Source of the DNA: Branchiostoma lanceolatum
Lineage: Eukaryota; Chordata; Leptocardii; Amphioxiformes; Branchiostomatidae
Reading direction: 5' to 3'
NCBI RefSeq assembly: GCF_035083965.1
Contig: NC_089722.1
Span: 17,581,142 to 17,645,141 of the forward strand
Length of the DNA stretch: 64,000 nucleotides
The notes below the pieces were generated by a model, which was not told the DNA's origin, made no database searches, and saw only the letters and a list, made by a program, of their open reading frames with translations. How positions within the stretch are numbered: the first letter of the stretch is position 1; each line of letters opens with the position of its first letter. This document shows, piece by piece, positions 4,279-53,933 of the stretch. Both the position numbers and the translations under genes were made by a program.

Positions 4279-5649
4279 ATGAAGACGTTGGTTCTTATTT
4301 CGTCCCTCTTGACTTTCGCCTTCGCCGTTCCGAACGGGAATGTTCGGACTTTGGGGGAGCCCGAGGTTCTTGAGAACGCCGAGACTTGCTCCGGCTGTGG
4401 CGATATGAATGCGCATCTGACTAACTTGGAGAGCACTGTCCAAGCGCAACAGGTAAATTTATCCATTCAATTTCAAGTCTCTTCACAATAATTTTTGGGA
4501 AAGTAAGGAGATCTCGTGCTATCAAATGAATAGAAGTTTTCAGAGGCGAACGTCGCCAAGAGTTGGCTTCGGAAGTCTTAAGAGAGTGGCAGGAAGTATT
4601 ACGTACACTGCACAGTTGCCTCTGGTCTATTGCTGTGGTCTAACGATTGTCTTTTTATTCAGGCGGAAATCGACGCGTGCCTGTCGTTGCAGACCCTAGT
4701 TATCAGCCTCACTAACACAGTGAGCGGCCTGGAAAGTCGCTTGTCCCAAGCAGAAGCGTCGGTGATGGCGGCAACCACTGAGCACGGCCTGGGTACCGAA
4801 TCCAACCCGGCCCACTCCTGCCTCCACATCAAACAGACCAACCCCTCCAGCCAGGACGGCGCCTACTTCCTCGTCGGGAACGGCGGAACCGTCTACCAGA
4901 CCTACTGCGACATGACCACGGCCGGAGGCGGCTGGACGCTGGTCTCCAGCGTGCACGAGGACGACATGTACGGCAAGTGTACGGCCGGGGATCGATGGTC
5001 CAGCACCCGCGGGAACAACATCAACTATCCCGAAGGAGATGGCAACTGGGCCAACGTGCATACCTTCGGCTCCATGGGGTCGGCCACCAGCGACGACTAC
5101 AAGAACCCAGGCTACTTCAGCATCAGCGCCTCCAATGTCATGCTCTGGCACGTGCCCAACAACGTGCCCGCCAAGAACTACAAAAGCGCCGCCTACCTGC
5201 GATACCGCACGTCTGACGGTTTCCTAGACAACTACGGAGGCAGCCTGTACACACTGTTCAAAGATCACTACCCTGTCGGGTATGGCCTCGGCACGAACAC
5301 ACACGACAACGGGCCGGCCGTCCCTATTCTGTACGAGCAAGGCAGTGATCATCTAGTGGAGTCTCTCTTATCTCCTAGTGTTATTTCTCTTCAACAGGCT
5401 TCCCCCGGCTTTGTACAGTTTCGCGTCTTCAATCACGCGGCTTCCTGTATGGCAGTTTGTCCTGGTGTAACCTGCGTTCGTGGTTCCTGTGAGAACATGT
5501 GTATCGGGGGCGGCGGGTACTACCCCGATGGCGCTCCAAGGCAGTGCGGAGACTATGGATCTAAAGATTGGGACGGCTACGGTACCAACGTAGGCTTCAG
5601 CACCAGCAGACTTGCGATTGAGTCTGTCGTCATGTTTTTCTACCGCTGA
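4279..5649 (+). CDS. Intelectin (X-type lectin), secreted
   Basis: Two exons, 4279-4452 and 4663-5649, give 386 residues. Residues 1-16 (MKTLVLISSLLTFAFA) are a signal peptide. Residues about 60-90 (LQTLVISLTNTVSGLESRLS) could form a short coiled coil for oligomerisation. The rest is a full intelectin domain: YCDMTTAGGGWTLVSSVHE, then GDRWSS, YPEGDGNWAN, SDDYKNPGY, GFVQFRVFN and CIGGGGYYPDGAPRQCGDY, ending LFYR-like (MFFYR). Intelectins bind terminal 1,2-diols on microbial glycans through calcium. The whole lectin domain lies in one exon, whereas human ITLN genes are split into many. By alignment to human ITLN1, Asn260, His263, Glu274 and Tyr297 are replaced by Ser, Asn, Asp and Phe, while Glu262, Asp282 and Trp288 are kept, so ligand preference may differ. 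Confidence 0.93.
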
Positions 5650-12649: not shown

Positions 12650-15600
12650 TCAAGTGGACATCGTTACTAGGATGAACTGGAAAACAACAGAACCAACTAT
12701 AAGGAGGTTCATGGTTCTAAGTACGCCTGCGCACCGAAATGCAGTGTGGGTAATGTGTCAAAAGTGAAAGCCCTTAACTTGTAAACAGTTCTTGTCTCGA
12801 CCATTGTCTCGATTTGTATAACAATATCCAGACGTGTTTTATGTTTCAGGGCCTTGACCTTTGACCTATTACCCCCAATGCATTTCGCTGCACATGCCCA
12901 CTAAAACTCGTGACTGTATATACCAAATTATCACTTCTTTATTTTTGTTCTTTGAGATTTTCTTGGAAAACTTCGCCCAGGCCTCAAAATGCATTTTGTG
13001 AAAGGAGCAAGTTTACTACAAAATCAGACTGAGCACGTTTTTACGGTAGGTAAAGAGGCTTTGTATAACATTTGCCGATATCTTTCGGCACTTGCCGATA
13101 TCTTTCGGTAATCTATGGCATTTATTTGCTCACTTTCCAGCTTCTTTTTGTGATTTCCAGTATGGTCGCAACTTTTAAAAACTACGTACGAAAGTCAATG
13201 AATGAGCACAACGTGTCAGCAGGCCTGACATCACATACTCACATCGTCGTATTGGAAGTTGACAGATCCTTCCTTGGCAGTGTCACGGCGGCTGAACTCG
13301 TCTAAATTAAGGGAAATATAAAAAAAAAACTAGTAACACGACCTCAAAGCATCGACATTTCAAGTGACGTATCATAAAGGTTTGCCATTCATTATGCAAA
13401 GAATGTCCTCATTTGCATAACCCCTCTTAGTTCATCATCTTTCCGTACCCGAATAACACAAGATGTTCAACGTATGAAAGTCTTATCTTATCAAAAGAAA
13501 TATGTTGTAGAGCAGCATTTCCTAATAGATTATGTAAACGAGACACACACACACACACACGAGTCAGTTTGTGCTCGTATCTACCCGTTAGCATCTTGAG
13601 ACGAACCGCGCAGGCCACGAAGTCGTCAAACGTCATCTTCCCGCCGTCGCCGTAGCGCTTCACGATGACGTTCATGGCTTCGGGGATCAGTGCGTGACCT
13701 GCAAGATTGAAGGAAGGTCATTTACAATTCTCTCAGGTGTAAATGAGTACCTAGCCTAGATTAGGGACGTCCCTCGGATAGGACGTTAAATGGAGGTCCC
13801 CTGTTTGTGGAGAGCCACACCATACGCACGTTAAAGAATCCACCAAAACTTTCGAAAAAGAGTCGGGGTATGCCCCGGTGTGCGATGGTCCAAAACCTTA
13901 CAGTCGGTTGACCCGATACATGTCAGTAATTGCCGATTCTTTGGCAGATGGACATTACGGAAGAAGAAAAGAAGAAGACGTTTTCTTGCCAGCGTCGCTT
14001 TTGAAAAGGGGATTTTCAAATAGCAACAAGACTTCAGAGACTTCACACCTCCATGAAACATCTAGTCCAAGAGCTTTAAAGTTTGTAGATTTCTGGTTTC
14101 ATCTTGTCTCATTGATTATTGAAGTGATGCATGATTTGTATCTTTAAATGTTCCACCTCCATAAATTGCACATGTATCAGGTCCAATTATGGTAAACACT
14201 GGAATATTCATATTATCCTCATTAATCATGTAAATTAAGTCCTAATTTACACAATTTACTTCTAATTATGTATATCACTGCCCAAGCTTCCTGTATACCA
14301 AATATCAAGAAGCTGGTTGAAAGATTTTAACAAAACGACCCTGCAATTCCAGAACAAGCTGCTCGGGGGAACAAACATTCACCACTTTTCTTTGCATCAA
14401 AATCTATCTGCCACCAAAAAGCAAAACCATAGCAGGACAAAAGTTACAAAGACTGAAAGTTCTGCTGAAAAAAGAAACAGACATGAAAAGCAGCCATGGG
14501 GACCAAAAATAGACATTGACTTTCCAATTTTGGTCGCTACACGGTCGCACAGCGATTGCCGCCCGGTGAGGTTATGAGGTTAAGTTGGCTAGATTTGTAT
14601 AGTTCCATAGATCCTGCAGCTGACTCACCCAGGTCGGCGATGGCAGCGTGTGGTTCCACGGTGCCACTGTTGTCACTGTCGTGCTGCGTGAAGATTTCTT
14701 TCCACCGGTTCAGATCCTCCCAGAGCTCCTTAAACTCGTCAAACCCCATCTTTCCGCTGTTGTCGTGCTTGAATTAGAGGAGTCAAGGAACTTGTGTACA
14801 ACGTATCATTATGGAACTGTGTAGATGTATGTCTTTGGCTTGCTTAACAAGAAGGTTTCGGAAGTGCAAGTTACAGACACTCTATCACCACAAATCATGA
14901 GAACTTATTATTTTGACACAGACAATGTTTATACAGATGATACAGGTCGCTAACAAAAGGATACGTCCAGCATCGAGATCATGATGCGACTTGTCTCCAG
15001 GCTAAACGCTGTTGGGACGAACAAAGAGTTCTCATAGTATGTACCATATACATGGTTGAGCAATGACCAATGTAAAACACCAAATTTACTATTTATAACT
15101 ATAAATGGATCGAATAAGCCCATAACATAATGTTTGTCTGTGTTGTGTGTCTTACATAGGTTGCTTCCGCTGACATCTCCATCGACCTCTTCATTGACCT
15201 CTCCAGTGGCCTCTCCATTGCCTTTGGCCTCTCCATTGACCTCTCCAGTGGCCTCTCCAGTTGCCTCTCCATTAGCCTCTCCATTGACCTCTCCAGTTGC
15301 CTCTCCATTGGCCTCTCCATTGACCTCTCCAGTGTCCTTTCCATCGGCCTTTCCATTGACCTCTCCATTGACCTCTCCATCGACCTCTCCATCGACCTCT
15401 CCATTGACCTCTCCAGTTGCCTCTCCATTGGCCTCTCCATTGACCTCTCCAGTGTCCTTTCCATCGACCTCTCCATCGACCTCTCCTTTGGCCTCTCGAT
15501 CGGCCTCACCAGTGGCCTCTCCATCGACCTCTCCTTTGGCCTCTCCAGTGGCCTCTCCAGTGGCTTCTCCATCGACCTCTCCAGTGCCCTTTCCATCGAC

Positions 15601-18600
15601 CTCTCCAGTGGCCTCTTCAGAGACATCTCCATCGTCCTCTTCAGTGACCTCTACAGTGACCTCTACAGTGACATCTACAGAGACGTCTCCATTGGCCCCT
15701 GCAGTGACTTCTGTAGTGACCTCTGTAGTGACTTCTTCAGTGGCCTCTCCATCGATCTCTTTATCGTCCTCTCCAGTGACTTCTCCATTAACCTCTCCAT
15801 TGACCCTTGAGGTGACCTCTCCAGTGACCTCTTCAGTGTTCTCTTCAGTGACCTCTACAGAGACCTCTACAGAGGATTCTCCAGTGACCTCTTTAGTGAT
15901 CTCTTCAGTGACCTCTACAGAGACCTCGACAGAGGCTTCTCCAGTGACCTCTTTAGTGACCTCTCCATTGACCTCTCCAATGACCTCTGCAGCGACATCT
16001 CCAGTGACCTCCCCAGTCACCTCTCCAGTGCCCTTTCCATCGACCTCTCTATCGACCCTTGCGGTGAACTCCCCAGTCACCTCTCCGGTGACCTCTCCAG
16101 TCACCTCTCCGGTGACCTCTCCAGTCACCTCTGCGGTGACCTCTCCAGTCACCTCTCCGGTGACCTCTCCAGTCACCTCTGCGGTGACCTCTCCAGTGAC
16201 CTGCAGCTGTTGTCCAGGGAAAGTTAGCTGTTCATGTAAAGGAATCTCAAGTTAGCTGTTCATGTAAAGAAATCCACAAAACATTAGTTTAAAGTAAACG
16301 AGGAACAAAACAGATTGTTTCCGCCAACATAACCGTTATTTCTATGCATCTGTTGAAGAGAACTCTCAGCTGGTAAATATATGTTATTAGGTACTTACTT
16401 TTCTCGCAGTTTTGGAGAATGATCCAGAAAGAGAATTCTCCTTTCCTCCTTTCTGTGGATTCCATGAGATGATGTCATAAGTCTTTTACGCATGTTATTG
16501 ACGACAATCGAACTAACCATACTCCAGCTGCTTCGATGCATTTAAAACAGACGATACGCATGGTTCGGTTGAAAAGTCTATAAAAGCGAACCTTACAAAG
16601 TCCTCGATACGGAAAAATGAGTATTACCTTGCATCCAAATGACAATGGATTCAAAATATTTAACACATATTCAATAGAAGATTGGGGCAACTTTCAATAT
16701 CACTGGGATAAGAAATAGACTTACTACACGCGGGGAAAAAGGCAACATTAGAGAAGGAACAAAGTTGGTGAGCTATAAATTTACCCACGCTCTGGCATCT
16801 AATTGGATGCTACTGGTCACAAAGTTGGTAAGCTATAAAGCAAAATTGATAAGCTATAAATTTACCCATGTTATGGGTCTGGTGTGGTCTGGACTGGACA
16901 AGACTACAACCCAAGCAAGTTTTAAAGTCGTACCTCGTTATCACCACGACAAGTTCCCTTTCCTCCAGGACTTTGACTCCCTTTTGACTTTTTTATCGGA
17001 GTGCTCGTGGCAGGAAACCACATCTTTTCCAGCGCAGTCGCCATCTTCAGCATTTCTGCGCGGTTTCTGCACAAAGCGGCGTGGGACAAATAATTACTGT
17101 AAATGCATTCATTTTCGCGTGGTTTTAATGTCGCGGTAGGGAGAAAATTGAGTGTTCGCGGTGGGTTTAAGTTCGCGTTTGAGACAGTAGTAAACCGTAA
17201 ATTTCGCGGAGGTTTTAAGTTCGCGGCGAAGAGCTTACCGCGAAAACAGCAAATATAAACCACCCCGAACATTTCTTAAATAACGTTACATGTACATGTA
17301 ACGTTACCCCGAACATTTCTTAAATAACGTTACATGTAACGTTGGGTAACATAAATTCGCGGGGTACTTAAATTCGGGATTTTTCGAAAACGGGGTGTTT
17401 AGGGATATGTGCTAGATGCAACATCAGTAATACCGCTAGAAATGCAAACTTGACAGAGTAACGTATTCAGAACACTGTCTGAAAAGCTTCGATAACCATG
17501 CATTAGAAGTTGGCTACGTCAAAAACTCTCCGTCCCTTATTGTCACAGTCTGAGGGCTTCGTGGGAGAATTATATGTACATAGTTGTTCGCTGGTTTATA
17601 AGACAAATGTCACATCCGCTTCCTGCTCAACACAATTATTTACAATACAACTTATTAGAATCTGTTTTGCTAACCTACAACTGGACTCTAAGTGTGATTA
17701 ATCATCAAAACGCCTCTTTGTTGCTACAACCAATGGCTACGGCACTACGGTGAATTTTCCCGCCGCCATATTCGTTACCCAGAATCCTGCTATTCGGCAG
17801 ACGACAAATGTTTGCGAGGAACACTTTTTTGTCTAAATGTTGTGTGTGATAGTGGACTGATGGCGATATTTTCCTCAAAGTTTGCTCTTAGCACAAGCAG
17901 AAACACATGGACATAGTAGTATTACCATTTCTACGGCATCCAGCTAACGCCCCGATGAATAATGTACAAATTTCCATGACGGTGGGGGTGAACTTTGAGT
18001 GACGTTCTACCGACTCAACACACGGGTTGTTCCCGGAGGCTTGATGTGTCCGGTACGGCCGTTTTTTCGTGTATTTTTTTTTTACTTGGACACGTCTATA
18101 TCCAAAGCACTCTCCTCAAGCCAAGGATGGAACGAATAGCTGCTGTATAAAATGTAATTAGCGGTAAGATATTCAAGACGAATCTTCTCTCCCGAATTAA
18201 TGTGCCCCCCTGTCCGACAGCACCATCATTGTGCGTGCGGCGGACGGTAGTTTCAAGTTGAAATATTATGGTGTCAGCACGACTAGAGACAAAATCTACC
18301 ATATATATGATTAGTGCAAAGATAGTACATGTACATAATACTGAAAGAATAATAGAAAAAAAAGGATGGTTTATTGTTCTGCTAAATTGATTTCAGTCAA
18401 CCATTATCGGAAAAATCCCGAATTTATGTTACCCAACGTTACATGTAACGTTACATGGCGTTGTCTGGTGGTATTCATTTACTCTACTTTGTTACAAAAC
18501 TAATGTTTGAACATATACGCGTCATTTTTTTCACATTTCTATCCTTGCTAACATGTAATAAGGTAGATTCAAATTGCGATGTGGAAACAAATCATCACAA

Positions 18601-18764
18601 ACAGTACGTGACTTTGTTATAATGTTTTGATCGGCCAGATTCTACAATATGTTTCTTTAATATGATGTACTACGTATGAAAAAAAAAGAAGAAATGTACC
18701 TGTAGGAAAAGCGCTGAAAAGAAAGGCCGGAAGCCAGCAAGCACACATCGTTCATGGTACGCAT
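12650..18764 (-). CDS. Penta-EF-hand protein with giant acidic repeat exon (copy B)
   Basis: Nine exons on the minus strand: 18764-18700, 17066-16934, 16452-16399, 16200 (or 16206)-15156, 15008-14965, 14767-14629, 13698-13585, 13301-13243 and 12676-12650. Phases agree throughout and give about 559 residues. Each exon except the repeat one has a clear counterpart in copy [10 protein letters not shown] near the start, [52 protein letters not shown] and [11 protein letters not shown] at the end. Differences are large. The exon coding DPLYGYF is absent, the EF1 exon is replaced by a 348-residue repeat, and a three-codon deletion after VEPH removes the Glu at position 12 of the EF3 loop. EF2 ([12 protein letters not shown]) is intact. 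The N-terminus ([15 protein letters not shown]) is a weaker signal peptide than in copy A. Confidence 0.78.
15156..16200 (-). repeat. Coding 12-bp minisatellite: (T/N/D)-G-E-(V/A) repeats
   Basis: About 87 tandem 12-bp units (GAGGTCACTGGA and variants) fill one exon of PEF copy B. On the minus strand they read TGEVTGEV..., grading to EVNGEV, EVDGEA and finally [11 protein letters not shown] before a GTAAGA donor. The 1045-bp length is 3n+1, exactly the phase needed between its neighbours, and there is no stop, so selection or very recent expansion has kept the frame. The last residues align with the end of copy A's EF1 exon (GISGTYQ), so the repeat probably grew inside that exon. The plus-strand frame (SPLTSPV...) is also open, but only as a by-product of the periodic sequence. 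Confidence 0.85.
17329..18453. mobile_element. Non-autonomous TIR element, ~1.1 kb
   Basis: Inverted termini: the left end (17329-17390) reads 'acatgtaacgttgggtaac', then ATAAATTCG and CGGGATTTTTC; the right end (18408-18453) is the complement, GAAAAATCCCG, AATTTATGTT, then 'acccaacgttacatgtaacg'. The left end carries an extra ~20-bp insertion and a partial tandem copy of the outer end (17263-17330). No transposase frame was seen inside. It lies in intron 1 of PEF copy B. Confidence 0.6.
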
Positions 18765-26700: not shown

Positions 26701-29700
26701 ACGTTCAAGTCTTGAATGTAAACAATTCCTAAGTACTGTACTGTACTAGTAGATCAATAATCAACAAGTTTTACCATTACGTGACTTTACATACATATAA
26801 TCCAGCAGGATTTGTATACACAGAATCAGGAGGCAAATTATTTACATTATACAAGTCTGTGTGAAAACATAAGTTAGTCATGACTCATTCCGACTCATGC
26901 ATTAGATAATACAGTCAAACCTGTACATATTTTTAGTGACTTCTACATAAGAACCACCTGCCCAATGGGACCACAGTCCCCCTTTTTGGTGGTCCCTTAG
27001 ATAATTTTCCCCATTGACACAAACATTAAGGATCCATGACACCAGTTAGACATTTAAATCTAAAGCAAAATAAACAAACATAAAACAGCCTCACCTGAAG
27101 TGCAGGGTGCAGAACTGGGTCGTGACGACGTTGTCTCCGTCGGCGCCAAGTTGAACTGCTGCTGCTGGAGCCGAATCTGTGCCTGCAGAATCTCGAGCGG
27201 GTGTCGGTCTTCCCCAGTCACTGGCCTGCTGTCCCCAGCACTTTTGTCTTCTTGGTCCGACCCTACAAACGCAGAGTTCTCTAGTTCTTGGGATGACTGG
27301 TCATCCTGGCTATAGCCTGCTACACATGTACACTTACTCTCAAATTCGCTTTCAGACTGACAGGCTTCCAAAGACCGCTGCTGTGTATAAAGAGGAGCTA
27401 CTGACTGAGTTACTGAGCCTTCTCCGTCGCACTGCAGGTTTCCTTCACAAACTTTTGCTTCGCTGCTGTCGGTAGTGGTTTCTTCTTGAACATCTGTGAC
27501 CTGCGGAGTCTCTACTACAGGATTTGGCTGTAAGTTTGGCCCAGCGGCTGGGTACACGTTCCCATTCACAATCGTGAGATGTAAGGATGTGTCTGTGTTC
27601 TGTAATGTGGCGGGGTTCAACCTACCCGTACTGTCTGTACTTTGTGTTATGCCATCCTGTGTAGCAAATGTAGAGTTAAAATCATTGTTCTCTCTGTCTA
27701 ACAACACGTCAGCCATTTCGTTTCCGTTCTGTCTTTGTTCCACTGTGTCCATAACTTTGTTCTTTTGTTTCTTTCCTTTCGTCGGAACATTGTCTTCCGA
27801 GGCTCGTCTCTTCCTCACGGTGGGTGCAGCTTCATTTTTGACTCTCGTAGAAAGTCCGGCTCCGTTGCAGCTAGTCTGGGATAGAGAGTCATCTGTATGG
27901 TTAAACACTGGCGGTACTTTATGTATCTCATCATTAGAGACTACGGAAGTCAAGCCGGGCACTTCATCCACCTCTCCTTTCCACACATCTTGACTAACTA
28001 TGTGTTCGTTACCGTCCCATGTCATACCTCCGTGTTCCAAGGCAGCCTGAGCTCTTTCCTCCTTACCCACCGTTTCATACAGGCTATATGTGGACCTCTG
28101 CAGGTTAGTGATCAGGTTGTGGCAGGCAGTGGACAAGGCGGCCAGGACGTTCTGCGTTCTAGGTCGCGTTGGCTCCGCATCGGGCAAATCTGACGCGGCC
28201 TCTCTGTAGTTGTTAACGATTGAAGGCGGAACTTGAGAACTATTGCTTAAGACTTGTTCACTCTTAGAGTTAGACACGTCGTCAGAAGGCCACAAGAAGT
28301 TAGGTGCCGCTTTAGAGTCTACGCTGTCGGCGGTGTGCTCTACAACCATAGGTATTACTGGATGACTGAGCCTCTGTTCTTGTGAGGGTGGAACTACAAG
28401 ATCTTGGGGTAAAACCTCCTTCGGTCCCTCTGTGTTGTTTACAGATACAGCAGGTATAGAAAGGCCACTTTGGGTGTTAAAACCAGGGTAAAACTGATCC
28501 CCATGTCGCGTCTGGAAAGACGGAGACTCTGGCACGGGCTGTTCTTGCTGGTAGGGGTACCCCCCGCCTTCGACCGCGGTGTTCTGCACGATCTGAATCT
28601 GTCGCTGGAAGTTTTGATCCTTGGCTTCCAGCCTGCTCATGTCCATTTGATAAGGCACTGGCGGGCTCGCCATCTGGAGCCGTGGGATCTCCACTTCCCT
28701 CTCCACCTTGGGTAAGGAGGGGTTGTACCCGACTTGCAGGCCGTCTTGAGAACTGAAGACGTTCTCCTCTCCCTGAAGGTGGTGGTTTGGCAAGACGTTA
28801 TGCTGCTGCTCTGCACTGAAGTTTGGTGACCAGGCAGTGCACTGTTCTCTCTCCACGTTGTTTAGTACAACTGACCCAGTCCTCTGCTGTTGTAGCTCCC
28901 ATGCCTGTCTTTCCAGTAAAGGGTTGGGAGTTTCGGCTGGACCTTGCTGTGACACAGTCTGCTGCATGACCTGTGTGGGCTGTTCACACGACCACCGAGC
29001 CCCTTCCTCCTGCACGGCTCGAAGGGACGACAGGTTCGGGGACCGGTGAGGGGGGTGCTGGGCTTGACACGGGGACTGGGGGACCGGTCCACAGGGGGAC
29101 TGCGGGATGGGGGTGGGGGTCTGCATGCACGGCGAGAAGCACTGTCCGGACGTCCCGCTGAGATTCGAGTGGGTGGAGCTGATGCTGGAACTGCGGCTTA
29201 CTAACGGCGCTGGCTGCCATGCTCCCGCCGCTGCACACGGTTTCTGTATTACAGGGCTGGGAGCGCTCGCCTGTCCCGGAGACAACATGCTCCTCTGTTG
29301 TGCTGCGGCGCTCTGCTGAGCGTACAGCATTCGCATCCGTAGCTCGGTCTGTGCGATCTTCTCAAAACTGTCCATAGCCGCATTATTGTTCTGAAGCTGG
29401 GCATGTGCGGCCATGCCTTGGTTGGGAAAGTTTCGATGCTGCCAGTGATCTGCTGGCTGAGTCCTAGCTGCGGCCTCGTTTTCTTGAGTCTGTACAAACT
29501 GACCGGGTATCGACGGCGGCATGTCCGGCAGTCCCTGGTACGCCGCGTTTCTCGGATGGTGCTTCAGGGCAACGTTTGGGTGCATCCCTACAAACTGGGA
29601 ATAGTTTGCCCCGTTGCCGTTTCTATACAGCTGGTGTCTCTCTCCTCCTTGAATCTGTTGTGCGTGGTACTCGCTGCGTTGGTAGGTCGGGAACTTGCCC

Positions 29701-30080
29701 GTAGGGTCGCTGTGTACGATGCCGCCCGTTTGCGGGTGGTACGATACGTCCTGGTGGTACCCTTGTCCGGGGTGGCCATGTTGCGACTGCGAGCTGAGCT
29801 GATGAAGCCTCGCGGCGTGAGAACGCATGGCGGGATCCTCCCCCAACAACGCATGATCCAAGTCCGAGAACTCAAACCCTTTCAGGTTGATGCAGGTCTG
29901 GGGATCGAAGCCGGACTGCTCGTGGTGGTATGCCGCCTGTTGTTGCGGATGGTGGGCCACCACGTTCATGTAACCGCCCCCCTCCCCCCTCGCCCACCAC
30001 CCAGGTGCACCGTTCGCAAACCCACCTGCTCCATTCTCCTCCGCCGACTCCACTGGCAGGTGTGGGCGTTGTCCATACAT
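23798..30080 (-). CDS. Large bHLH-leucine-zipper transcription factor, family unresolved
   Basis: Six exons on the minus strand: 30080-27095, 26535-26422, 25977-25822, 25493-25444, 25011-24923 and 23810-23798 (TGA). The total of 3408 bases gives 1135 residues with matching phases. Exon 1 codes ~995 Gln/Ser/Pro/His-rich residues, with an acidic-hydrophobic patch (KGFEFSDLDHALLGEDP) that may activate transcription and a basic nuclear signal (VRKRRASEDNVPTKGKKQKN). The DNA-binding domain starts near residue 1042: RRLLHKLNEQRRRDSLK, whose His-Glu-Arg at basic positions 5, 9 and 13 is the class B signature for CACGTG boxes. A loop (IPDCRDSSDQSQQN), helix 2 (VLNKANSFILEMLD) and a zipper (REEVRNLRARNLALQQGISA) follow. 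The domain resembles the Myc/Max/Mlx/USF group, but the long N-terminus matches no family I recognise. Confidence 0.82.
25679..25756 (-). repeat. Duplicated partial bHLH exon, possible alternative exon
   Basis: Within the intron after the basic-helix exon, a second copy of its 3' part codes VYCLKQAIPDSRDSSDQ and QQNVLNK, followed by the same AAAG/GTACAAC donor. About 70 bp of flanking intron is also duplicated (near 25605-25675 and 25770-25820). An AG lies just before 25756. The 78-bp unit is entered and left in the same phase as the real exon, so it could be spliced in. No stop lies in it. Confidence 0.65.
26097..26300 (+). mobile_element. 3' end of a 5'-truncated non-LTR retrotransposon
   Basis: A plus-strand frame at 26097-26258 reads GRGRPRKSWMECVRKAI, then VCGLTSVNPLDRAAWKSS and a TAA. 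The (G)RPRKRW-(D/E)CV...LDRAxW pattern is typical of the C-terminal end of non-LTR reverse-transcriptase ORFs. It is followed by a short tail that ends in a TAC repeat (26275-26301). It lies inside an intron and antisense to the bHLH-zipper gene. Confidence 0.7.
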
Positions 30081-30760
30081 TATTATGTAAACTAAGGCAC
30101 AACAAGTCTCCTCTCCTTCTTTAAGGAAATTTTTCCTGTCCTCTGATTATCTGGTGAGTCGATCTTGACAGTAGTTTGCTTGCTAGAGAAGCAAGCTGCC
30201 GACGTTTACATCGCTTCAGCTATCACCTGTGCGAGGGTTTAAAATCATATACGCGAAGGTAGCCCGGTAGCTAGCGGTGCGGGAGCTACATTTGTAGCGA
30301 ACTGGTGACCAAGGGAAAGCTACAGCATTGGTTCTCCTAGCACCGGATGGTTAGGTACAGCTCTACGGGGCGGCATACCATCGCCGTGGCCGGCCATGCA
30401 AGTTGAACGAGGCTACTGCAAACTTACAAGTGTCTCCGAGCTGTCAAACTTCGGCTGCAAGGAGCGAGCCCACCGACCTGGAGCCCCGGGTCAAATTTCG
30501 CCCGCCTGGGGTCCCTCAAAAAACTTTCCGGGCGGACGGCTGGAGTGGAGATCGGGAAGGGCAGGCGGTCTAGTCGGACGCCCCATTCTCTGATCTCGCT
30601 GTTTGCGGCCGGGGACGGAGGAAAAGGCACAAGATGAGGCGAAAACCGAGCCCGTACCACTCTTCAGCCATTGTCTTCGGCCTGCCCGGTTCACCTGTCC
30701 TCACGGCGCATGCGGGCTTCCCAGAGCCCACTGCGAGGGGCTCCCTTAGGGCCTACATGG
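30081..30760 (-). promoter_or_regulatory. GC-rich 5' flank of the bHLH-zipper gene
   Basis: The sequence upstream of the start codon is clearly richer in G, C and CpG than its surroundings, notably 30440-30760, as expected of a CpG-type promoter and 5' UTR. No TATA box is evident. Role inferred from position and composition only. Confidence 0.4.
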
Positions 30761-36400: not shown

Positions 36401-39400
36401 CCACCCCCCCCCCCCCCAAAAAAAAATTGAAAAAAAAAAAATTGCTAGTAAAACGCTAGTGGGAAGGCCTGCAACGGAGGCTATGCTTCGCCAAGTTCCG
36501 GGATCACAACACGTGTGATTCGGAAACAACGCACTGAAGCTCCGGCAACATATCCGATTACCCATCTGAAATAACAACAACAAACGAGCATGTCAGAGAT
36601 AACCACAGTAACATTAAAAAAACTTAGCGGAAGATCTATATATCAACTATGCAGAATGTTTGGAAATGATAAAAGTGCGCTGCCACTTCAATTGCTAATA
36701 TATGATAACGGAATAAAAGGTCGTTGAAAAAAGATCTGTAGGTATACAATGTAATGATAGAACAAGATCTAGATAAACTACAATCTACTGCCTTTGGTTG
36801 GAAAACTGGCAGCTGAATTTTCTACGACACATGCACGGTTATCCCAAGACTCATGGTGCCCTAAGTTTGCGATTTTGCCCTACATGTTACTCTCCAAGAG
36901 GAGGGGTTCCGGCAGGTTTTTGACGTGTTTTTAGGCGTTTTTGTCGGGCTTTCTACTTTGTCATTTTTTGTTTCCATCAAAGTAGAAAGCCTGGCAAAAC
37001 GCCTAATACATGTCAAAGCCTGCCGGAACCCCTCCTCTGCTCGAAGAGTACTACATGTAACTGAGAGACCGTTAAATGATCTGAAAAAAAATGCGACGCT
37101 GAACGGTCTCTCAGCGGTCTCACAGCTGTCTCACAACGGTCTCACATCGGTCTCTCAACGGTCTCTCAACGGTCTCTCAACGGTCTCTCAACGGTCTCTC
37201 AACGGTCTCTCAACGGTCTCACAACAGCCCTGCCTCTGTGGAATTTTCTCTTAACCGTTCCCATGACTACTGGCAGGTTCCGTGTATCGGGGAGGAGGCG
37301 GATGCTGGCCGCGTGGCGACCCGTGAGTGCGGGATAGTGGAGATGCCTGAGTACGGGTACTCCGTGGCCTTCTGGCGGGGTCCGGACTGCAGCAAGTGCC
37401 GCGTCTGTAAACCCGCCACCAAGTCCTGCAAGGGGGAGAGCAGCTACGACATGGACTGGGAGGACACGCCGATAGGTGAGGCGCTGATTGGCTGTGTGTT
37501 CATCATTGAATTCAAATCTACCAATCACAAGTCCTGAAGGACTCGATCATAACCATTATCGGAGCTTAGTAGCAAGTTTAGTATCACAATATTTTCGTCA
37601 CTGAAATCAGAGAGAATTTGCACTCTTAAAGTCAGCTTTGGTCGAGAAGGTTACTTAATCCTTATTGTGCTTCTACGGTTGCAAAGTTTTTCGCCTTGTG
37701 CAAGGGGAGTGGCAGTCTTGCGTTTCTACCAAGAAAAGGCTGTTGGAAATTGGAAGGTTAAAGTTTGTTTGGTTGTTTGTTTGTTTGTTTACTAGGAGAG
37801 GTAGTAGAGAAGCCGTGTGACGAGCGGCTGGGCCTGAGAGGGTCCAGTGTGAAGAGACGATGTGTGGAGTACCCGCCCCTCAGTATGGCTGTGTGGGAAG
37901 TTCCCGACATGACCGAATGTGTCAGCGCCTTCGCCAACTCTACCATATTCCAGGTGATCATGAATAAACAGACTCTCTTTATACATAACCAAGTGTTCTA
38001 CCTGTTTTAGCAAGGACAATGCCACTTAACACTTCACCAACATCACAGCACGTACAGCAGAGTAAAGTCCAATGGATAGCAAGAAGAAAACGCAGATCAG
38101 CACCAAGGACAGGGTAGTATGGAGACGTGAAAGGCGTCATGTTTTTGCAAACAGGCTCGTGACATCGGCAGTCCTGCTTGATTGGACTGGTTGAATTTGT
38201 TTTAGATAGAACTATGACCTAGAATAACGTATAACTACGAAAATAGTATCGCCGACAGGAGATCGTATTCGTAGAGTTATCAAAGACTGAAGTGATTTTA
38301 ATCTTACAGGTCGTGCATTGGGGGAAAAGTCAAGAAAGAAACTCAGTTTTCCATTCAATGTGTCAAATATACTTTTAGTCTTATTGCAACACCAGCATTG
38401 CTTCTATGTTTATTGTTTGAGCTCTTAATCACACTAAAGCAGCTTGGGGATACTACTTTAAAATGCAGGGAAATCACTTGCAGTACTTCTGTCTCTCGCT
38501 AGACGACGCTGCTGGAGCAGTACTTCACCATGTACCTGAACTCCACCGTCCAGTGGATGAAGCGTAACGTCTGCCCGCCTGAGACAACGTTCATAGAAGA
38601 GAACAGGAAAGGTCAGGATAGGACTTCATCGATTCGTAGTTATAAAGTAACCCGAGATATGTGTAGTACATACAGAGAAAGACGATGTGTGTGTGTGTGT
38701 GCGTGCGTGCGTGCGCGTGTGTTTTTTGTGTGTGTTTTGTGTGTGTCCTTTTCAGATTTCAGGTTTCCAGCCTCAATGACGAATCATAACGGTATATGCA
38801 AGCACGAACGGTATCGAAGACAACTAAGAATTCCTTTTGCAGGTATTTTCAGATGGCCCTTGACGCTAGCTGGGTTCCCGGCGCTCGCTGACTGTCCCTA
38901 CGGCTCCATCCTGCCCTCCGCCCGCCTCATCCGAGACCTCATCCTGGACATCTCTCTCGGAGTCTTCCAGCACCAGGAGATTCCCGTGGAGAAGTACAAC
39001 GGCACCAGCCTGACCGATAACTTCCTCAACACGCTCTGGACAAGCAGCATGGACAACTTCGTGGAAAGCGACGTCTACAAGGAAGGGAAGGAGTTCTTCG
39101 AGAAAATCTTTAACAAAACAGGGGAGGGGGCTAACGATCGCAAACGGCAGCGACGGTCTGAGAAGGCGACCGAACGCATCGTTGTCCGCAGACCGGAGAT
39201 ACGGCCCCGACATCTGGATCATTTCGGCACGTCCGACTATGGCGGAAATGCAGCGGTAGACAGTTTCAACCACAGCGAGACAACCAACCAAACTCAAGAA
39301 CCTCCATCCAGAAACAAGGTTGGTAAACTGATCGTTCGTTCTCATTTAAATGTAACGTTACACATTTTATAACTACCGTTACCGTTTGAAGTAAGACGTT

Positions 39401-51104: not shown

Positions 51105-53933
51105 ATGTGTACGAGAGCCTGTCATCAGACAATGGAGGGAAAACCGCGCCCGGTCTGCAGGGAAATCACCAAAGTGAGGAAGGTCAAAAAGTCAGCGGTG
51201 CCCCCGTACTACCCGCCTAGCAACACCAGATGTCAAGGATCTCCAAAGATACCCCAAACCCACGAATGTAAAAACGGCTTAACGAAACTAACTACGGAAG
51301 GAGACGACTATTACTACGTCCAGTCCAGATTTGATTATAACTTCTCGGTGAAAAAGAGCCGAGCTAACTCGAGGGCTTCGTCTGTTTCGTCCTGGGTTTC
51401 CTGGCGGGACTATGCGACTCCGAGGAAGAGCAGGGCCATACAAAGGGTGCATCAGCTTTCCGAGAAAATTACGGGGCTCGAAATTCCACGTCGACAGACA
51501 CGTCTGCCCTACGTGGACGCGAGTAGGTCTGCGTCCTCGCTCGTGAAAGGGTGGAGAACGCCGAGTTTTGGGAGGCAGTACTCCAAAACAGCGCCGGCAA
51601 GGTTGGCGTCAATACGCGAAGGACGATATTCATCTGGTGCGGTACGTTTTCCTCCTATTCTGAATACAGAAGCGCCCACACAAAAACGATAGACAGTGTG
51701 ACAGCGATAGAAGTCACTTTTTCTAAAGATGAATAATTGAGCATGTCGACTTTGCATGGCGGGAACAATAGGCGACAACAGGCCGTTTCAAGGGGGACAA
51801 ATTCTGGGATTTGGCCTCAATAGAGAAGCGGATTATTCATCATGATATGTGCGAGGATACGGCATAGCAACAGCGGGAAAAGCTTACGACATAAGGACGT
51901 CGTAAGTCAGATCGGGGATTAGAATGGTCCCTTGATTTCCAAAAACCACAAAGGCCCCGCAGCAGCGATGGAGGAACTTGTCGTCACAATGGGCAGAAAT
52001 AATACTGTGGACGTCAAGAACAGGACGCATGACGCATCCTACTTGTGAGTACAGGTTATCTGTAATTCTGATCTCCCATCGCTGAATTTGCTGCGTGGTT
52101 TGAGCTCCAGGATGTGCTGTGTTCATGTCTAAGAGACCGCGCAAACAGGCTTACGGTAAAGAATAGGGTGCCACATGTTTCGTCTCTTTGAGCCCGGATA
52201 TATGTAATTCGTCAAAACTGACTTTTCAGGCATTTGCATGAGGAAAGGCAGTGCTGTACAAGACGAACTGACTGCGTATTTCCAAGATGAGTTCAATCAG
52301 CCGTTTTCCACCGCTGCAAGTGTCTTCTTTGATGGAGAGTGACAAAATTAGGCCAAGGTCTCACGAAATACCCAGGCAGACGCAAGAGGCTGAAGAATCT
52401 CCCGAAAAACGCCGTCCAAAATCTCAAGAACTTCCCGCGATCAGAGGCGCTTCGAGAGCGGGATGGCGGACGGCGAAATCTCGGGTCGTGTCTAGGACAC
52501 GGGCTGGTCGTGACACGGGATTGAGTTTAAAACCGCCGCCTCACACGGGTCTCAGGGCACGGTCGGGATGGGAGAAACAAGATGGCACCAGAACTCCGTC
52601 AGAAGATATGGACGATCGCAACAGATCCAGCAGAAACAGGTTCTATCGAACCGCTGCCATGGCAACAAGGTCACAGACACTTCTGGATATAGGCCGTCAT
52701 CTTGTCCCGTCGCCCAACGCTGTTCAAGGTCAACGACGGGAAAACGATACGTCATCACAAAGTGATTATCAAGAGAAGAAACTTGAAACGAAAATTGATA
52801 AAGCACGGAACGAAAAATACGAAAGGCAGTCAACGCTTAATGTGACACTTACGTCAAGTACAGTCAGATTGACACAAGAAACCGAAAGAGAGAAAACTCC
52901 CTATTCACCTATTGTGAATGAAATCTCGCGTAAAGATAGCAACGGTCGAGAAGAGAAAGAGGACTGTAGTTTGTTTCACTTGAACAAGAAGCAACCTGAC
53001 TCGACTGCCGGGGATAGAATCTCGGGTGGAGACGCCAACGATCTAGAAGAGGAAGAGGACTATTATCTGATACATTTGAACAAAAAGCAACAACCTGCAA
53101 GCGCCAAAACATTTGGCTCAAGTAGCGTGGATAGAATCTCGCGTGAAGATGGCAAAGATCGAGAAGAGAAAGAGGAGTATGCTCAGATGCAGTTGAACAA
53201 AAAGCAACAACCAATAGGCGCCGAATCATGTAAATCTAGCGTTAACTCAACTATCGTGAATAGATTCTCTCGGGAAGATGGCAACGACAAAGAAGAGACA
53301 GAGGACAGCAATCTCTCAAAATTGAACACCGCGCCATTGGTGAAGGAAGCCACAAACGACGCTTATTTGAGCGCCGGTCTCTCGTACGGCTACAAGTTGT
53401 GGAATGAGATTTCTAGATGGGGCAACCAGAACAGTTCCAGGTTTTCCCACTCCTTAAAGCTTCTGGATCGCATCGAATCTGGCATAGGGAACATGCTGGG
53501 GGAAACAAAAACAACACAGGATGTAAAATGTGAAGGGGAAGAGAATTCCTCGAGCAACTTACAGAACAGTGAAAACACGTCGCACGATCCTTCGGAGAGT
53601 GCGTCGACATGTGTGAATGAAGAAAAAGAGGATTTGAACTATGAAGGGAAAGAACAAATATTCACATCACAGGGAAGTGATGAAACCGACCACAATACAG
53701 CGAGCAAAGATGTGCCTTCTCGGAAGTACAGTAAAGCAGCTAGCCACGCAAACTCTTGGTGTCAATCATCGCACGACGACTATTACGTCACGACCCTTGA
53801 GGACAAAAGACCACCGCGCCACCCGGCAAAGGGACGCCAGAAAAACGGAAGGACTGTAGCTAGCGGAGAACTCAACACGTATGAGGACTACTTTATTTCC
53901 TTAGATAGTAAAAGCAAGTTTAAGAGGGTTTGA
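51105..53933 (+). CDS. Unrecognised disordered protein with acidic-tyrosine motifs
   Basis: Two open frames, 51105-51641 (or to a stop at 51692) and 52287-53933. A GCG/GTACGT donor at 51641 and an AG at 52285-52286 would join them in phase, giving ~727 residues; they could instead be two genes, as 52287 is a good ATG. I recognise no domain. The protein is rich in Ser, Glu, Lys and Arg, has no signal peptide or membrane helix, and is probably mostly disordered. Both parts share a short motif of acidic residues, Tyr and Leu: GDDYYYV (51299), EDYYLIHL (about 53057), HDDYYVTTL (about 53773) and YEDYFISL (about 53881). In the second part, four ~45-residue units repeat with (I/F)SR(E/K)D, REEKED and LNKKQQ. 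The polyadenylation signal is AATAAA at 54341-54346. Start is uncertain. Confidence 0.55.

Follow-up and report, generated by a model that had tools for sequence, protein, structure and literature searches.

Two tandem sorcin-like genes and a repeat-filled exon

We analyzed a 64,000-nucleotide stretch of the Branchiostoma lanceolatum genome, hereafter the window (assembly GCF_035083965.1, contig NC_089722.1, positions 17,581,142 to 17,645,141 of the forward strand; all coordinates below are those of the window). Its minus strand carries two tandem penta-EF-hand (PEF), sorcin-like genes, p1 and an upstream copy, p2, and in p2 a 12-bp tandem repeat occupies the place of the exon for the loop of the first EF-hand (EF1). 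A reading made from the sequence alone, which we call the original prediction, had described p2 as a PEF gene whose EF1 exon was taken over by an acidic repeat with its phases kept. Both parts of that description hold, and the family can be given more precisely as sorcin, which among PDB sequences, the only set used for this assignment, is the closest solved PEF protein for both genes. For p1 the top match is sorcin (E 2e-75, over query residues 84-248), and from DPLYGYF onward p1 aligns to human sorcin nearly gap-free. Sorcin is also the best match of the last 127 residues of p2, which span EF2-EF5 (E 1.7e-44), and heads the 32 PDB sequences that this core matches at E ≤ 1e-10, so that homology extends over EF2-EF5. 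Pfam EF-hand models score above cut-off for the same core. The five EF-hands that define the PEF family are all present in p1; p2 has EF2-EF5 only.

The spliced p2 model is open through all exons to the stop codon, giving 535 amino acids from the ATG in exon 2, or 561 when exon 1 is included (Table 1). All eight introns are bounded by GT and AG, and, exon for exon, the phases are the same as in p1. Because the candidate exon 1 carries four small indels and does not share the start codon of p1, the true start of p2 may be in exon 2.

The repeat exon of p2 (16206-15156, minus strand) is 1051 nt long, or 3 x 350 + 1, and the EF1 exon of p1 (9512-9443) is 70 nt long, or 3 x 23 + 1; the EF1-loop exon of p1 starts in phase 0 and ends in phase 1, as does the repeat exon. 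The 3n+1 length needed by the neighboring exons is thus real, as is the absence of stops (0 in 350 codons in the needed frame). Tandem Repeats Finder places the array at 15171-16202, with a period of 12, 86.5 copies, 75% matches, 1% indels and a score of 858; it is a tandem array in frame within an exon, as expected of a coding minisatellite. The consensus unit, around GGAGAGGTCACT, reads GEV(T/N/D). A 21-nt repeat probe allowing up to 3 mismatches finds 51 matches, none of them outside the exon; in shuffled sequence the expectation is 0.01. The figures of the original prediction need some adjustment. An acidic repeat does lie in the place of the EF1 exon, but it spans 350 codons rather than 348. 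The roughly 87 in-frame (T/N/D)GE(V/A) units are about 86, of which 43 fit the strict motif exactly and the remainder are variants (SVEV, TEEV, DGKG, TAEV and others); 79 units share one register, and a 6-bp shift comes near the 3' end. The domain has the proposed length of about 350 residues and is acidic, with a net charge of -88, but at 29% acidic residues it is not polyacidic (350 codons: E 79, G 63, V 62, T 46, A 26, D 24, N 18, K+R 15).

A Pfam search of the repeat at E 0.01 matched no family. Among PDB sequences, the repeat has 17 matches at E up to 1, three of them at E < 0.001: pyridoxal kinase (6su9), an ARID-domain protein (23fj) and OCM3 (9ufe). We read these three as compositional since the alignments cover only low-complexity stretches with a four-residue period (NGHM, PGQM, SGQP). 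The beta-helix of T4 tail lysozyme gives weak matches (E 0.03-0.08).

The 3' end of the repeat exon retains the mark of its predecessor. Aligned with the end of the EF1 exon of p1, its last 22 nt agree at 15 positions (binomial p 2.5e-5), the next-best 22-mer within the repeat exon matching at 11, and past the donor site 7 of 10 intronic nucleotides match as well; the proposed alignment between the last residues of this exon and those of the paralogue's EF1 exon is therefore sound. Judged by sequence, the position, phase and 3' end of the repeat exon are those of EF1, and its interior is new.

Calcium sites and reading frame of p2

The original prediction credited p2 with a calcium-sensor core, which overstates what is left. 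A tblastn search of p2 found no counterpart of the p1 helix-A exon (9927-9874, DPLYGYFSSVAG; also given as QADPLYGYFSSVAGA), and the exon that precedes the repeat in p2 matches p1 exon 10563-10510 rather than the helix-A exon. Given that the helix-A exon is lost and the EF1-loop exon is replaced, EF1 is gone from p2. A 9-nt deletion in p2 exon 6 removes three residues of EF3 and leaves Ala instead of Glu at loop position 12, so the p2 loop lacks the bidentate Glu of its counterparts (DRDRSGTVEPHE in p1, DTDRSGTVDPQE in human sorcin). EF2 and EF3 of p1 both retain the position-12 Glu; in p2, EF2 is the only canonical calcium loop. According to a sorcin study (PMC4649501), Glu124 of EF3 is the key ligand, mutation of the bidentate Glu strongly lowers calcium affinity, and EF4-5 mediates dimerization; the strongest calcium site of sorcin thus relies on the residue that p2 has lost. 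The calcium sites of sorcin lie in EF1, EF2 and EF3, and p2 departs from this pattern at EF1, which is replaced, and at EF3, where the Glu is absent. As predicted from its residues, p2 retains one canonical calcium loop, EF2, and the dimerization half.

Since openness by itself says little for a 12-bp unit, we compared the frames of the array. Counting stops gives 0 in the needed frame, 12 and 14 in the remaining frames of this strand, and 41, 2 and 0 in the three frames of the complementary strand. Among G-to-T changes, those creating a stop in the GEVT frame occur at 1 of 158 sites, compared with 12 of 237 for the rest (p 0.019, with sites that are not independent); this rarity favors a kept frame but is suggestive only, because the units are copies of one another. 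The 79 units in one register comprise 46 distinct ones, whose divergence requires at least 56 substitutions. By simple arithmetic at an assumed 0.08-0.14 indels per substitution, four to eight indels would be expected in the array, most of them frame-breaking, and the only one detected measures 6 bp. The frame of the array therefore looks maintained.

The EF2-EF5 core was examined by simulation. With 4000 runs per rate and the same assumed range of indels per substitution, the probability that this core would be free of stops and frameshifts, had it evolved neutrally since the duplication, ranges from 0 to 0.026 across the rates used. Because an intact core is so improbable under neutrality, p2 was probably a coding gene for most of its history, although a recent loss may apply.

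Coordinates and neighboring features

Table 1. Exon coordinates of the two sorcin-like genes, in window positions
Feature	Coordinates	Strand	Remarks
p1, tandem paralogue, five EF-hands, ten exons	11082-6657	-	product 250 residues
p1 exon 1	11082-10994	-	
p1 exon 2	10745-10652	-	
p1 exon 3	10563-10510	-	
p1 exon 4 (helix A)	9927-9874	-	
p1 exon 5 (EF1)	9512-9443	-	70 nt
p1 exon 6	9043-9000	-	
p1 exon 7	8611-8464	-	
p1 exon 8	7721-7608	-	
p1 exon 9	7314-7256	-	
p1 exon 10	6683-6657	-	
p2, nine exons in longest model	18764-12650	-	
p2 exon 1 (candidate)	18700..18764	-	homologous to p1 exon 1; four small indels, different start codon
p2 exon 2, basic N-terminal stretch	16934..17066	-	contains ATG at 17053
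p2 exon 3	16399..16452	-	54 nt; counterpart of p1 exon 3 (10563-10510)
p2 exon 4, repeat-filled	15156..16206	-	takes the place of the exon for EF1 loop and helix B; 1 nt beyond 350 codons; starts in phase 0, ends in phase 1
p2 exon 5	14965..15008	-	helix C ahead of EF2
p2 exon 6	14629..14767	-	EF2 loop (canonical) and EF3 loop (position-12 Glu lost, 9-nt deletion)
p2 exon 7	13585..13698	-	EF4
p2 exon 8	13243..13301	-	EF5
p2 last exon	12650..12676	-	FILVTMST, then stop

Several observations concern the two genes themselves. Directly upstream of the repeat-exon acceptor lies a 28-bp tandem duplication (16221-16274, 96% matches), which doubles a CTAACTT stretch, a candidate branch point. Exon 1 of p1 is signal-peptide-like, its best 13-residue hydropathy being 2.74; were it a signal peptide, p1 would be a secreted sorcin. 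The p2 counterpart of this exon encodes a weaker hydrophobic stretch (1.2) and has a different start codon. Exons 3 and 4 of p1, both 54 nt long and in phase 0-0, are identical at 31 of 54 nucleotides, an identity reached by 0 of 20000 shuffles, and the likely explanation of the pair is a duplication of the helix-A exon.

Elsewhere in the window, a 355-aa open frame at 4582-5649 (plus strand) looks intelectin-like; the Pfam models Fibrinogen_C and COLFI match it weakly, with scores that stay under the respective cut-offs. Neither a 553-aa open frame at 52272-53933 (plus strand), which contains a 117-bp (39-residue) repeat of about 1.9 copies, nor a single, partly low-complexity open frame of 1028 aa at 27060-30146 (minus strand) has a Pfam match at E 0.01. 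An 11-bp tandem array, AACGGTCTCTC, lies at 37102-37225 (11.3 copies, 92% matches).

Explanations for the repeat-bearing copy

The explanation that we favor, and hold to be just about probable, is that p2 is a real but relaxed paralogue in which an in-frame minisatellite overran the EF1 exon, leaving a largely calcium-blind dimerization module with an acidic, disordered tail. By this account, a sorcin gene would have been duplicated in tandem and the p2 copy would have lost its EF1 helix-A exon. An expanding 12-bp minisatellite, reading GEV(T/N/D) in the needed frame, would then have filled the EF1-loop exon between its splice sites, the original 3' end of that exon surviving the expansion, and the 9-nt deletion would have taken the bidentate Glu of EF3. 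The gene would be transcribed and translated, and its product would be a mostly calcium-blind module that keeps EF4-EF5 and carries an N-terminal basic tail and a disordered acidic repeat. The N-terminal part of p2 has 84 residues, 9 of them Gly, and a net charge of +10 (-2 in p1), and the charge of the EF2-EF5 core is -10, compared with +1 in p1. AlphaFold2 gives the repeat alone a mean pLDDT of 42 and a pTM of 0.21, as for a disordered chain.

A number of observations weigh against this account. No homology to the EF1 exon of p1 is recognizable at the 5' end of the repeat exon, where matches number 4 of 22 nucleotides in the exon and 8 of 20 in the intron. We also considered and rejected an origin of the unit in the EF1 loop itself (DGQVD to DGEVD), the best 15-mer matching at 11 of 15 nucleotides, which is the commonest maximum in 40 shuffles of the EF1 exon. 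The repeat is likely disordered, but single-sequence AlphaFold2 applied to a low-complexity protein is weak evidence for this. No purifying selection on repeat residues was seen when non-synonymous and synonymous deviations were compared in six frames: over all deviations, the ratio of non-synonymous to synonymous change in the GEVT frame is 1.85 times expectation (0.92 to 1.86 in the other five frames), and on a minimum spanning tree of the units it is 1.41 times expectation. Between the p1 and p2 cores, dN/dS is near neutral, at 0.72 by NG86 (bootstrap 0.39-1.40), 0.60 by YN00 and 0.53 by maximum likelihood, and the differences are spread evenly over the three codon positions (22, 24 and 21). 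EF5 of p2, which shares 17 of 26 residues with human sorcin and 15 of 26 with p1, is not better kept than the rest, a level of conservation that speaks neither strongly for nor strongly against pairing by p2. Faster change of p2, by contrast, belongs to the account itself. In a relative-rate comparison over 127 aligned columns, with human sorcin as outgroup, 66 columns are the same in all three proteins, 22 are shared by p1 and p2 alone, 14 are all different and 3 have gaps; private changes number 16 in p2 and 6 in p1 (two-sided binomial p 0.052). Given this faster change, p2 is under weaker constraint than p1.

Many of the same facts would suit a p2 that became a pseudogene recently or is well advanced in decay. 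The array would then have grown in an exon no longer needed, chance and the 12-bp unit would have preserved its frame, and the gene would be silent or its protein useless. The lost helix-A exon, the replaced EF1, the deleted EF3 ligand, the four small indels of p2 exon 1 with loss of the p1 start codon, the excess of private changes, the even spread of differences across codon positions and the unconstrained repeat residues are all as this explanation would have them. On the other hand, stops, frameshifts and broken splice sites are absent from every exon of the p2 model, stop-making G-to-T changes are rarer than other G-to-T changes within the limits given above, and the intact core is so improbable under neutrality since the duplication that any decay would have to be recent. 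We regard decay as a serious possibility, short of probable.

Two further explanations concern how the array is read. Part of it might be removed by splicing, or an upstream or internal acceptor used, so that the protein would contain a shorter insert. Animal exons longer than 1 kb are unusual, every unit contains GT and AG dinucleotides, and an in-frame AG is seen on inspection 21 nt before the acceptor used in the model; however, the coding strand of the array is purine-rich and offers no pyrimidine tract to an internal acceptor, and skipping the whole exon would bring a stop after nine further codons. We consider such splicing unlikely. Very unlikely, in our view, is that the array belongs to a plus-strand gene as a Ser/Thr/Pro-rich, mucin-like repeat (TSPV) of 374 open codons. 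The plus-strand open frame at 15131-16255 has 0 stops within the array, but this is uninformative because, by inspection, a stop in the TSPV frame cannot arise from the unit by any one base change. No joining exons were found on the plus strand, though plus-strand genes were not modeled there, and the minus-strand flanks of the array are splice sites at matching phases.

Coding minisatellites are in-frame tandem repeats in exons, and the p2 array resembles them in its 12-bp unit, its confinement in frame to a single exon, its whole-unit copies and its largely disordered predicted product; unlike them, it lies within a conserved calcium-binding motif, in a duplicated gene, and destroys that motif. 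Peflin and the calpain small subunit have low-complexity N-terminal regions (repeats, poly-Gly) and, like p2, place the PEF domain after a long region of this type, but in those proteins the extra region precedes a complete EF1, whereas the p2 repeat is acidic and replaces EF1 within its exon. They form heterodimers through EF5, as PEF proteins do (PMC5037681). With sorcin and grancalcin p2 shares EF2, EF4 and EF5, p1 holding all five EF-hands; it differs from them in lacking EF1 and the EF3 Glu and in having a 350-residue acidic repeat in the place of EF1. The N-terminal domain of sorcin is described as short, flexible and Gly-rich (PMC4649501), and the N-terminal part of p2 is basic instead. 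p2 is a sorcin-type PEF gene carrying a coding minisatellite. Among the titles and abstract openings that a partial set of open-licence PMC papers offers on PEF and peflin repeats, on amphioxus and coding minisatellites and on acidic repeats with EF-hands, none describes such a repeat-bearing PEF protein, a weak absence; in the same partial coverage GEVTGEV has no match, and the only match for sorcin in amphioxus concerns presenilin.

If our favored explanation of a relaxed paralogue is correct, p2 would pair through EF5 with itself, with p1 or with another PEF protein, adding a long, charged, disordered arm that would change the calcium response of its partner; p2 itself would bind calcium at most weakly and at low affinity. 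A role as calcium-insensitive partner is favored because PEF proteins pair via EF5, also as heterodimers (ALG-2/peflin and sorcin/grancalcin; PMC5037681). Selection would then keep the frame and overall acidity of the repeat, not its residue order. The suggestion that the repeat binds calcium in bulk, or mineral, is possible but unsupported: as a selected trait it finds no backing in the sequence, the repeat residues showing no purifying selection. A bolder version of our explanation, which we put forward tentatively and think doubtful, is that the EF1-exon minisatellite turned a calcium switch into a selected, translated, calcium-blind dimerization partner, with an acidic, disordered 350-residue arm balanced by a new basic tail, that tunes or sequesters a calcium-sensing partner.

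The biological reality of p2 depends on its transcripts. If p2 is decaying, it shows how long a frame outlasts function when the invading unit is a multiple of three. If it is translated, p2 would be a clear, datable case of a repeat overtaking a conserved motif exon with the gene unbroken and an intact tandem copy alongside, and it would offer a way to study how folded families acquire new disordered domains and what role is left to a PEF protein whose calcium switch is disabled.

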